Shown here: positions 19,459 through 22,585 of the stretch, in pieces
Position numbering within the stretch: position 1 is the first letter of the stretch
How the letters are laid out: each line of letters begins with the position of its first letter
From: Pseudolabrys sp.
GTDB lineage: Bacteria > Pseudomonadota > Alphaproteobacteria > Rhizobiales > Xanthobacteraceae
NCBI GenBank assembly: GCA_025929185.1
Contig: JAICMO010000016.1
Coordinates: forward strand, 1-32,260
Direction: 5' to 3'
DNA: 32,260 nt
Made by a program: the position numbers and the translations under genes
Notes under the pieces: generated by a model
What the model saw: the letters and a program-made list of their open reading frames with translations, nothing else
Database searches by the model: none
What the model was told of the DNA's origin: nothing

Positions 19459-22296
19459 ATGATCGACAAGACTTACCAGCCTTCCGAGGTCGAAGGCCGT
19501 ATTTACGAGACGTGGGAGCGGGCGGGCGCCTTCCGCGCCGGCCGCCCTGAACGCGCCGGCGCCGAGCCGTACTCTATCGTCATTCCCCCGCCGAACGTCA
19601 CCGGCTCGCTGCATATGGGCCATGCGCTCAACAATACGTTGCAGGATATCCTCTGCCGCTTCGAGCGCATGCGCGGGCGCGACGTGCTGTGGCAGCCCGG
19701 AACCGATCATGCCGGCATCGCGACGCAGATGGTGGTCGAGCGGCAGCTGATGGAGCGGCAGGAGCCCGGCCGCCGTGAAATGGGACGCGAGGCGTTCCTC
19801 AAGCGCGTATGGGAATGGAAGGCGGAGTCCGGCGGCACCATCGTCAAGCAGCTCAAGCGGCTCGGCGCCTCGTGCGACTGGTCGCGCGAGCGCTTCACCA
19901 TGGACGAGGGGCTCTCGCGCGCGGTGGTGAAGGTCTTCGTCGAGCTCTATCGCGCAGGGTTGATCTACAAGGACAAGCGGCTGGTCAATTGGGACCCGAA
20001 GCTGCTCACAGCCGTCTCCGATCTGGAAGTGATCCAGGTCGAGACCAAAGGTCACCTCTGGCACATCCGCTATCCGCTCGAAGGCAAGACGTTCGATCCG
20101 AACGATCCTTCGACCTTCATCGTTGTCGCGACGACGCGTCCTGAGACGATGCTGGGCGACGCGGCTGTCGCGGTGCATCCGGATGATGAGCGGTACAAGG
20201 ATTATGTGGCCGCGTTCAAGGCGGGCAAGCCCATCAACGTGATCCTGCCGCTGGTCGGCCGCAAGATTCCGATCATCGCGGATGAATATTCCGATCCGGA
20301 AAAAGGTTCGGGCGCCGTCAAGATCACGCCGGCGCACGACTTCAACGACTTCGAGGTCGGCAAACGGCATCAATTGCCGCAGATCAATATCTTTAGCGTC
20401 GAAGCTAAGTTGAATTTGAAGGACAATGATGCATTTCTCGACGGCGTTGCGGGTTCAGCCGATCTTGACGAATCGCTCGCGATGCATGGCCTCGATCGTT
20501 TCGTCGCGCGCAAGAAGATCGTCGAGCGCCTGGAGGCGAAGGGCTTGTTGGCGAAGATCGAGCCGCAAAGCCATGTGGTGCCGCACGGCGACCGCTCAAA
20601 CGTCGTGATCGAGCCCTATCTGACCGACCAGTGGTACGTGAACGCCAAGGAGCTGGCGAAGCCGGCGATCGCGCCGGTGCGCGAGGGCAAGACGAACTTC
20701 GTTCCGAAGAACTGGGAGAATACGTACTTCAACTGGATGGAAAACATCCAGCCGTGGTGCATCTCGCGCCAACTCTGGTGGGGCCACCAGATCCCGGCTT
20801 GGTACGGGCCGGATGGTACGGTGTTCGTGGCGGTGAGCGAAGCGGAGGCCCAGGCCGAGGCCGACAAGCATTACGGCAAGTCGGCGAAGCTCACGCGCGA
20901 CGAGGACGTGCTCGACACCTGGTTCTCGTCCGCCCTGTGGCCGTTCTCGACTCTCGGCTGGCCCGACAAAACGAAAGAGCTTGAGCGTTACTATCCAACC
21001 TCGGCGCTCGTTACCGGCTTCGATATCATCTTCTTCTGGGTCGCGCGCATGATGATGATGGGTCTCCACTTCATGGAGGAGATCCCGTTCAAGGACGTCT
21101 ATATCCACGCGCTGGTGCGCGATGCCTCCGGCGCCAAGATGTCGAAATCGAAGGGCAACGTCATCGATCCGTTGCGCCTGATCGACGAATACGGCGCCGA
21201 CGCGTTGCGTTTCACGCTCGCCGCGATGGCCGCGCAGGGGCGCGACATCAAGTTATCGACCCAGCGCGTCGAAGGCTACCGCAACTTCGCGACCAAGCTG
21301 TGGAACGCCGCGCGCTTTGCCGAGATGAACGCCTGCGCGACGGTGCCCGCGTTCGATCCAAATTCGGCGAAGGAAACGTTTAATCGCTGGATCGCGCACG
21401 AAACGGCCAAGGCGGTACGCGACGTCACCGACGCGATCATCGCTTACAAGTTCAACGACGCGGCCGGCGCGGCGTATCGCTTCGTCTGGAATATCTATTG
21501 CGACTGGTATCTCGAACTGGCAAAGCCGGTGCTGCTCGGCGCCGGAGGCCCGGCCAAGGAGGAAACGCGCGCCATGGTCGCGTGGGTGCGCGATGAAATC
21601 CTGAAACTGCTCCACCCGTTCATGCCGTTTGTGACGGAGGAATTGTGGGCGGTGACATCTCCTTCCGTCATTCCGGGGCGCCGAGAAGCGGCGAACCTGG
21701 AATCCACAACCACAGCAGGGAGTATGGATTCCGGGCTCGCGCCTTCGGCGCGCCCCGGAATGACAGAGAGGACGTTGCTGCTCGCGCTCGCCTCCTGGCC
21801 AACTTTCGAATTCAGCGATGACAAAGCCGAAGCCGAGATCGGCTGGGTGATCGATCTCGTCACGGCAATCCGCTCGGTGCGCGCTGAGATGAACATTACA
21901 GCGCAAATCCCGCTCGTGCTCGCCGGCGCGTCGGCGGACACGAAGGCCCGGGCCGACCGCTGGGCGGAGTTCATCAAGCGGCTCGCGCGCGTGTCGGACA
22001 TCTCAACGGCGGCAAGCGCACCGCAGGGCGCGGTGCAGCTCATCGTGCGCGGCGAGGTGGCGGCGCTGCCGCTCAAGGGCGTGATCGATCTTGCCGCCGA
22101 GCGAGCGCGGCTCGACAAGGAAATGGCCAAGGCCGAAGCCGACATCAAGCGCGTCGACGCCAAGCTTGCGAATGAAAAATTCGTCGCCAACGCGCCGGAA
22201 GAGATCGTCGAAGAAGAAAAGGAAAAACGTGAAGAGGCGCTCGGCCGCAAGGCCAAGATCGCGGAGGCGCTGGAGCGGCTCAAAGGCGCGGCCTGA
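19459..22296 (+). CDS. valS: valyl-tRNA synthetase carrying an in-frame palindromic repeat
   Basis: A 945-residue class Ia synthetase that charges tRNA-Val. HIGH-type HMGH is at 52-55 in PPPNVTGSLHMGHALNN, the editing domain occupies roughly 190-330, KMSKS is at 560-564 (SGAKMSKSKGN), and the C-terminal coiled-coil arm (RARLDKEMAKAEADIKRVDA onward) ends the protein. The start at 19459 gives the usual MIDKTYQPSEVEGRIYE. Within the anticodon-binding domain, after PFMPFVTEELWAVT, residues 737-769 are encoded entirely by a palindromic DNA repeat (21667-21764), and the normal sequence resumes at LLLALASWP. In the family this linker is usually around 15 residues, here above 40. The frame is kept and all key motifs remain, so the enzyme is probably functional. 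Confidence 0.96.
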   Translation: MIDKTYQPSEVEGRIYETWERAGAFRAGRPERAGAEPYSIVIPPPNVTGSLHMGHALNNTLQDILCRFERMRGRDVLWQPGTDHAGIATQMVVERQLMERQEPGRREMGREAFLKRVWEWKAESGGTIVKQLKRLGASCDWSRERFTMDEGLSRAVVKVFVELYRAGLIYKDKRLVNWDPKLLTAVSDLEVIQVETKGHLWHIRYPLEGKTFDPNDPSTFIVVATTRPETMLGDAAVAVHPDDERYKDYVAAFKAGKPINVILPLVGRKIPIIADEYSDPEKGSGAVKITPAHDFNDFEVGKRHQLPQINIFSVEAKLNLKDNDAFLDGVAGSADLDESLAMHGLDRFVARKKIVERLEAKGLLAKIEPQSHVVPHGDRSNVVIEPYLTDQWYVNAKELAKPAIAPVREGKTNFVPKNWENTYFNWMENIQPWCISRQLWWGHQIPAWYGPDGTVFVAVSEAEAQAEADKHYGKSAKLTRDEDVLDTWFSSALWPFSTLGWPDKTKELERYYPTSALVTGFDIIFFWVARMMMMGLHFMEEIPFKDVYIHALVRDASGAKMSKSKGNVIDPLRLIDEYGADALRFTLAAMAAQGRDIKLSTQRVEGYRNFATKLWNAARFAEMNACATVPAFDPNSAKETFNRWIAHETAKAVRDVTDAIIAYKFNDAAGAAYRFVWNIYCDWYLELAKPVLLGAGGPAKEETRAMVAWVRDEILKLLHPFMPFVTEELWAVTSPSVIPGRREAANLESTTTAGSMDSGLAPSARPGMTERTLLLALASWPTFEFSDDKAEAEIGWVIDLVTAIRSVRAEMNITAQIPLVLAGASADTKARADRWAEFIKRLARVSDISTAASAPQGAVQLIVRGEVAALPLKGVIDLAAERARLDKEMAKAEADIKRVDAKLANEKFVANAPEEIVEEEKEKREEALGRKAKIAEALERLKGAA
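21667..21764. repeat. 98-nt palindromic repeat element inserted in frame in valS
   Basis: GTCATTCCGGGGCGC (21667-21681) and GCGCCCCGGAATGAC (21750-21764) are exact reverse complements. Inside, GGAATCCA (about 21699-21706) pairs with TGGATTCC (about 21724-21731), and GCGCC/GGCGC forms a small hairpin near 21740-21750. The whole is a long nested palindrome of the GTCATTCCGGGG type that I know as a common intergenic repeat in Bradyrhizobium-like genomes. Here it is translated as 33 residues including VIPGRREAAN and MDSGLAPSARPGMT. Confidence 0.9.
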
Positions 22297-22306
22297 TTTC
22301 TGGCAT

Positions 22307-22339
22307 CCCCGGTCAGGCGCGAAGCGCCGCGAGCCGGGG
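22307..22339. repeat. GC-rich two-step hairpin after valS
   Basis: CCCCGG (22307-22312) pairs with CCGGGG (22334-22339), and inside GGCGC (22316-22320) pairs with GCGCC (22324-22328) around GAA. It starts 11 bases after the valS stop. There is no T run, so it is a poor intrinsic terminator; the CGCGAAGCGC-like core suggests a half or solo copy of a palindromic repeat related to the one inside valS. The remainder of the spacer to 22585 holds only a 25-codon open frame (22385-22462) without a ribosome binding site. Confidence 0.5.
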
Positions 22340-22585
22340 GCCGTACGCTTGACCAATTTCACAGCGATCTACGAGACCGGCACCATGAAGCAAATTGCCG
22401 GCTTTGCCACGCCGAAAGCGCCGATGGGCTTCGGCTTTGCCGCGGGCGGCAGGCACGCTTAGCTATGTTGTCATGACGCCGCCTTAGTTGTTGAATTCGA
22501 ATTGGCGAGCGGGCGGATGACGCGCCAATTTCCCACGGGCCGCGGGCTTTCGAGTTCATCGTTTCCCACAGTTGAGTATACCAGC

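Follow-up and report, generated by a model that had tools for sequence, protein, structure and literature searches.

The valS locus of Pseudolabrys sp.

The window is a stretch of 32,260 nt from Pseudolabrys sp. (GenBank assembly GCA_025929185.1, contig JAICMO010000016.1, positions 1 to 32,260 of the forward strand). It corresponds to contig C207 of genome G000, an assembly of 3.63 Mb in 281 contigs that is approximately 90% complete. The subject of this work is a palindromic repeat of 98 nt that lies in frame inside valS, the gene of valyl-tRNA synthetase (ValRS). The gene and the features discussed first are:

19459..22296, + strand: valS, valyl-tRNA synthetase, 945 aa, ATG start (open reading frame; Pfam tRNA-synt_1, Anticodon_1 and Val_tRNA-synt_C; TIGR00422, 1063 bits)
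19612..19623, + strand: HMGH motif, residues 52-55, intact (translation, alignment)
21136..21150, + strand: KMSKS motif, residues 560-564, intact (translation, alignment)
21667..21764, + strand: 98-nt palindromic element, in-frame residues 737-769, VIPGRREAANLESTTTAGSMDSGLAPSARPGMT (reading frame, repeat search, folding)

With the ATG at 19459 as codon 1, position 21667 opened codon 737 and base 21764 fell within codon 769. The element ends, GTCATTCCGGGGCGC and GCGCCCCGGAATGAC, paired perfectly over 15 bp. The repeat search returned inverted arms at 21664-21706 and 21725-21767, which were 81% complementary with 18 nt between them. Folded as RNA, the element reached -73.5 compared with -42.2 +/- 3.6 in 200 shuffles (z -8.6), and folded as DNA it had a z of -6.9. 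In both cases 0/200 shuffles were as good. Rfam at the gathering threshold detected only two tRNAs in the window and assigned the element to no family. A sequence-only reading of the locus had described a nested palindrome, perfect over 15 bp at its ends and translated as residues 737-769. Coordinates, frame and numbering were all exact, which confirmed that observation.

The same reading had proposed that the element entered an essential gene without destroying it, probably as a surface loop, and this interpretation was supported. In the assembly, valS was the sole place above the TIGR00422 (valS) cut-off in a profile search. All 945 codons were open and both catalytic motifs, HMGH of the HIGH type and KMSKS, were intact. 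An excess of third-position changes was found downstream of the insert, showing that this part of the gene is under purifying selection. AlphaFold2 predicted a normal ValRS, in which residues 737-769 formed the only segment with a pLDDT confidence score below 50. In this model, the 33-residue block is a low-confidence loop, presumably disordered, on an otherwise normal enzyme. A conserved gene hit by an insertion is often a gene in decay. However, nothing in the present data backs decay here, and with the only valS of the assembly open over its length, its catalytic motifs intact and its downstream part under constraint, a pseudogene that carries the insert as a harmless scar is hardly credible. 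Palindromes are also hard to assemble, and the fragmentation into 281 contigs would leave room for a repeat copy misjoined into valS by assembly or binning. Against such an artefact, the element lies mid-contig and in frame, flanked by valS domains, and the same arrangement recurs in two other assemblies, one of which has only 2 contigs. An artefact is therefore extremely improbable.

Anatomy and class of the repeat

The valS element is a head-to-head dimer of CGTC-tagged repetitive extragenic palindromic (REP) units, flanked by a pyrimidine and a purine tract:

21658..21666, + strand: pyrimidine tract immediately 5' of the element (flank composition of genomic copies)
21666..21706, + strand: left REP unit with CGTC tag, 8-bp stem ATTCCGGG/CCTGGAAT, 18-nt loop and CCA tail (pattern match)
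21707..21724, no strand: 18-nt spacer separating both REP units (repeat search, pattern match)
21725..21765, - strand: right REP unit, head-to-head with the left one, with TGTC tag, stem ATTCCGGG/CCCGGAAT, 18-nt loop and CCA tail (pattern match)
21765..21772, + strand: purine tract, mirror of the 5' tract, immediately 3' of the element (flank composition)

The left-unit stem ATTCCGGG/CCTGGAAT contained one G-U type position. Both stems agreed with the rule of 8-9 bp and an AT start, both units carried an accepted tag (CGTC or TGTC/CCTC) and an unpaired CCA followed both stems. CGTC REPs were described by Di Nocera et al. 2013 (PMC3733652). CGTC REPs occur mostly as head-to-head dimers, their CGTC is often altered to TGTC or CCTC, and tag, 8-bp AT-start stem, unpaired CCA and dimer arrangement were all shared with the valS element (PMC3733652). 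They are abundant in Alphaproteobacteria including Bradyrhizobium and have no dedicated transposase, as was the case here (PMC3733652). The valS element differed in its structured loops of 18 nt, compared with the usual 4-5 nt of CGTC REPs; Bradyrhizobium CGTC-1 is exempted in the same source, its loops being of different length (PMC3733652). The comparison with Rickettsia palindromic elements (RPEs) made in the sequence-only reading was apt: RPE-4 and RPE-6 are assigned to the CGTC superfamily (PMC3733652).

Dispersed copies in the genome

With the element as query, 86 matches were obtained in its own genome, both strands counted and with 40 of the 139 candidates scored. The end motif GTCATTCCGGGGC, searched with at most 1 mismatch, occurred 174 times compared with once for the reversed control pattern, a full copy having two ends. 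After merging of loci, at least 89 distinct element places were distinguished, 75 of them at least 85 nt long. The number 89 is a lower bound, loci with a mismatched end motif having not been deliberately collected. Typical copies started with GTCATTCC and ended with GGAATGAC. The strict unit pattern was matched by both units at 43 places, by one unit at 36 and by neither at 10. Of the matched units, 61 had T as the first tag base before GTC and 39 had C; A (12) and G (10) made up the remaining 22/122. On both flanks of 56 copies, the pyrimidine fraction was 0.58-0.81 at positions -1 to -9 and approximately 0.44 further out, mirrored at the other end. No target-site duplication was obvious by eye in the flanks of 62 listed copies, for which no formal test was made.

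Open frames that ran across an element and extended 30 residues or more beyond both of its ends numbered 52 and came from 39/89 places. A Pfam scan covered 49 of them, the omitted three being antisense to valS or ileS, the isoleucyl-tRNA synthetase gene. Pfam families were matched in 13/49 frames. The Anticodon_1 domain of valS spanned the element, and in ten other frames the domain started after it, consistent with a repeat that lies upstream of a gene. At 2/89 places, valS and ileS, there was evidence of the gene both before and after the element, and at one more, thiC, this evidence was partial. The thiC copy (L280, G000:C198:1-1300, minus strand, element at 134-238) was in frame after the ThiC-associated domain and was followed by an apparent second palindrome (HLPLQGGGRPAPPAGWGS) that reached the end of the contig. 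As the assembly lacks the radical-SAM part of thiC, the case is only partial. Within the limits set by Pfam-unmatched frames and by the 7/89 places that lay within 150 nt of a fetched end, in-gene copies are rare. The sequence-only reading had called this repeat class mostly intergenic and had asked for other copies in the genome; both points were borne out.

At leuS (L265, G000:C111:7000-9200), a repeat copy at 992-1110 lay approximately 10 nt or less from the 3' end of the gene. A third class Ia synthetase gene of G000 thus has the element, here next to its end.

The valS loop in related bacteria

The insertion site was compared in a non-random sample of 102 distinct valS genes from near and far relatives. 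The stretch from TEELW to LLAL was 8-13 residues long in 89/102. Palindromic inserts were present in five genes and absent from 97/102, close relatives included. The absence of the block from relatives, put forward in the sequence-only reading as a check, was thus observed, and the block was not found conserved without palindromic DNA in distant ValRS. Three genomes carried the CGTC-type repeat at the identical valS codon: G000, G018 with the same genus code, and G092 with another genus code. The G092 loop peptide was identical to that of WHTM01000066 (Hyphomicrobiales bacterium Dino_bin37). The remaining two, G005 and G002, had a different palindrome in the same loop, and its core motif recurred within the ileS genes of three genomes and at a single place in G000. 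The exact junctions of the valS element were scanned for in a genome collection with one genome per species (84,980 species), which may omit records of the window's own genome. G018 and G092 were recovered, and the other 2/4 matches, L190 (Nocardioides) and L193 (Rhodocyclaceae), were chance matches outside valS.

Full-length matches in Bradyrhizobium-like genomes were considered as a sign that the block is a widespread conserved feature. This was rejected, the insert of these genomes being unrelated and located at another site, after LLALxPW. This different insertion of approximately 25-30 residues (L085-L110) is near the repeat site and off it. A second variable region with long, dissimilar inserts in many genes was seen in valS of relatives (L061-L071, L079) at approximately residues 450-480 of the window protein. 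Just past the valS stop of the window, a GC-rich hairpin at 22305-22345 had a z of -1.0 and was no more stable than shuffles; its first bases had no second place among the fetched loci.

Number of insertions into valS

On a quick ValRS tree of all 83 rows, the CGTC-type label required 3 changes, the other palindrome 2 and both together 5. A single clade of G005 and G002 was rejected in the approximately unbiased (AU) test (p-AU 0.0009), and G002 was placed among insert-free close relatives. The valS loop was therefore entered at least three times in all. The view of a single unusual event in the sequence-only reading was too narrow, also because the ileS gene of G000 contains another in-frame copy.

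The three CGTC-type insertions were probably separate. In the careful 40-row tree, G092 was separated from G000 and G018 and grouped with G100 (97/92), which lacks an insert; 0/200 bootstrap trees united the three carriers. The elements of G000 and G092 were 90% identical, compared with 75-82% upstream and 60-74% downstream for their valS flanks within 100 codons. The G018 element belonged to a 107-nt subtype and was nearer to other genomic copies than to the valS copy of G000. These sequence comparisons would favour either separate entry or gene conversion. That carriers had recently exchanged a valS segment was not supported, as flank identity showed no consistent rise near the insert: in the 10 codons upstream it was 0.82 compared with 0.78 overall for G000/G092 and 0.88 compared with 0.77 for G018/G092, and downstream it was below overall.

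Other results weigh against separate entry. A single clade of the three CGTC-type carriers was not rejected in the AU tests, with p 0.52 on the quick tree and p 0.25 on the careful tree, though there the constrained tree was 28.6 log units worse. Constraining G000 and G092 together improved the quick tree by 21.9 log units. All three copies sit at exactly the same codon behind a similar 10-nt pyrimidine 5' flank, xTCTyCnTCC, which a single old insertion or a directed target might explain. In addition, G003 grouped with G000 (approximate likelihood ratio support, SH-aLRT, 90 in the quick tree; 90/85 in the careful tree), and its valS (L033) has ASAAVPGGASA at the insert site, which may be the remnant of a deleted element. 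A single ancestral or transferred insertion in G000, G018 and G092, lost in the lineages between them and kept close to genomic copies by gene conversion, would account for these points. It would have to be reconciled with the bootstrap trees, the grouping of G092 with G100, the higher identity of the elements than of their flanks and the different length and affinity of the G018 copy, and it leaves the other palindrome of G005 and G002 unexplained. Such a single origin is possible but doubtful.

Inserts in the ileS loop

The second in-frame copy of G000 was located in ileS, as TPQWFIAMDKPIH[VIPGRAEGANPESITPALRSVDSGSAAARRPGMT]SGEDTLRHRAL. The ileS sample was non-random and comprised 81 distinct genes (82 loci, one gene twice), namely the 30 genes that best matched an insert-bearing query, another 11 with full-length matches and 40 from lower in the ranking. 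Inserts were called from z-score, loop length and visible hairpins together. The hairpin z-score alone was rejected as a mark of an insert, the ordinary 26-residue loops of L219 and L293 scoring -4.5 and -3.3. Palindromic inserts were present in the ileS loop of 19/81 genes, with z at or below -3.0 in 18/19 and -2.1 in L222. None of the 40 lower-ranked genes had a loop longer than 26 residues, so 19/81 overstates the family-wide rate.

Five of the 19 inserts were the CGTC-type repeat of G000. They occurred in G000, G005, G339, G111 and G136, from two genera, and a phase-blind DNA pattern of this repeat in the ileS loop returned the same five out of 391 genomes. The other 14 were different hairpin-forming kinds. 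Several kinds followed TPQWFIAMD (L194-L223, L292), with peptides such as PPPCGEGSGVG...PHPNPLPQAGEG and SPLPLGEVGARS...PHPTPAGSTSPQRGEV. Among the inserts of other kinds, one common motif was present in 7 loci, two of which were the same gene. Insert positions differed within the ileS loop, which supports repeated entry.

Reading phase, hairpin strength and mobilisation

The valS copy is read as GTC-ATT-CCG, here termed the VIPG phase, and so were 8/9 in-gene copies, the thiC copy being in another phase. In the other copies, counted as 114 copy-orientations, the VIPG phase was open 51 times and the other phases 70 and 61 times. For the valS copy, the VIPG phase gave a net charge of 0 to +1, compared with +2 to +5 in the other phases, one of which also ended in TGA. 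The phase preference fits a filter for harmless peptides. It is weakened by the way the ileS cases initially came to light, through a query that was itself in the VIPG phase. The phase-blind check gave 5/5, yet some of these are perhaps not independent, and phase preference was rejected as proof of selection and taken as suggestive only. The coding copies folded at -0.68 to -0.83 per base, compared with a mean of -0.65 (sd 0.095) in 65 other copies. The hairpin seems to be tolerated, or the insertions are young.

These data bear on the proposal that the insert is kept for a function, either as an mRNA hairpin that slows translation before the C-terminal domain or as a loop that alters the binding of tRNA or a partner. 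The recurrence in ValRS and IleRS would agree with this, as would the shared phase of 8/9 in-gene copies when other phases are open at least as often, the VIPG phase read in all five genomes of the phase-blind ileS search and the maintained hairpin strength. However, most relatives lack the insert, different palindromes and peptides with no conserved peptide occupy the same site, and disorder is predicted for the region. Low charge, together with a TGA in one of the other phases, also accounts for the phase preference, from which the thiC copy departs. Retention for a function is accordingly very unlikely.

REP-associated tyrosine transposases (RAYTs) mobilise GTAG REPs, which resemble the valS element as small, palindromic, non-autonomous repeats spread through a genome. 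They differ in their GTAG tags, compared with CGTC/TGTC in the valS element, and no Y1 transposase was found in G000. The Y1 family PF01797 was absent in 7/10 other genomes, carriers and relatives, and present in 3/10. Five Y1 loci were inspected and none was directly flanked by the element. RAYT mobilisation was rejected as a general explanation, PF01797 being missing from G000 and present in just 3/10 others; a past role is possible. A Y1-type transposase gene of G111 (L339) had a repeat copy approximately 500 nt away, not flanking.

Interpretation

The observations are very probably explained by dispersal of REPs with survival only in disordered, length-tolerant loops. A CGTC REP dimer, one of approximately 90 or more copies in G000, would have inserted in a short valS loop that follows the final helix of the anticodon-binding helical bundle and precedes the conserved LLALxxWP segment. 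The ribosome would read through the element because the GTC-ATT-CCG phase is stop-free and encodes a nearly uncharged peptide rich in Pro, Gly, Ser and Ala. ValRS would thereby gain a disordered and presumably neutral loop of 33 residues and keep its fold. Copies landing elsewhere in genes would presumably be purged by selection. If only tolerant loops retain copies, repeated colonisation by several palindromes would follow, both for the valS loop, entered three or more times, and for one loop of ileS. Some enzyme presumably mobilises the repeat.

Against this explanation, the 36/49 spanning frames without a Pfam family leave more in-gene copies possible, the hairpins of coding copies were as strong as those of others, with no sign of selection against an mRNA hairpin, and Y1 transposase PF01797 was absent from the G000 assembly and from G018, which is 99% complete. 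These loops of the class Ia synthetases ValRS and IleRS might instead be preferred landing sites for several palindrome families in Xanthobacteraceae-type bacteria, the insertions being directed or favoured (pyrimidine-tract target, single phase) and not just tolerated, perhaps because synthetase production or activity is tuned by a translated hairpin or a disordered loop placed there. We regard this as unlikely. Tolerance of the loops is the best explanation of the recurrence, ahead of directed targeting or functional benefit.

Relation to known repeats and significance

Intragenic CGTC REPs occur occasionally, including in tRNA synthetases of X. oryzae, E. lithoralis and S. alaskensis (PMC3733652). 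In the accessible part of that paper, insertions are mostly at different sites, with one same-site case (recB in two Xanthomonas), whereas the valS and ileS loops were hit repeatedly across genera. Similar to the valS element, Rickettsia RPE-4, RPE-6 and RPE-7 are palindromes of comparable length in frame in essential proteins, with an ATGAC motif (PMC3767692). Isoleucyl-tRNA synthetase and PheT of R. japonica carry RPE-7, and different RPE groups occur at the same locus of orthologues, for which insertion hot spots are one possibility and a common origin of RPE-4, RPE-6 and RPE-7 is favoured (PMC3767692). valS is not in the visible part of Table 1 of that source. The RPEs differ in their Rickettsia hosts, compared with Pseudolabrys sp. 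here, where just 2-3/89 copies had gene evidence. The relation of the valS element to RPE-4 and RPE-6 rests on the CGTC classification of PMC3733652. The consensus of Br-REP2 from Bradyrhizobium japonicum USDA 110 has GATTCCGGG ... GCCCCGGAATGA in common with the right-hand valS unit, and Br-REP2 is part of a larger repeat of Bradyrhizobiaceae (PMC5082802). Br-REP2 and Br-REP1 differ in their loop sequence and, in the accessible part of PMC5082802, are reported in intergenic regions and 3'-untranslated regions only.

In the open-access literature searched, no report was found of the ValRS case or of palindromes converging on the valS and ileS loops. The valS case is a further example of published intragenic REPs, synthetases included, and the new part is the recurrence at one loop of an essential enzyme, by several kinds of palindrome. 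The carriers and their close relatives provide natural alleles of one essential enzyme that differ in whether a translated repeat is present, at one loop and with two kinds of palindrome. They make it possible to test by what means REPs and RPEs move when no transposase is known for them, whether their distribution is set by target choice or only by survival, and whether such repeats give rise to new protein loops. The Rickettsia story is extended to other Alphaproteobacteria, with one ileS loop as a recurrent sink for such repeats.

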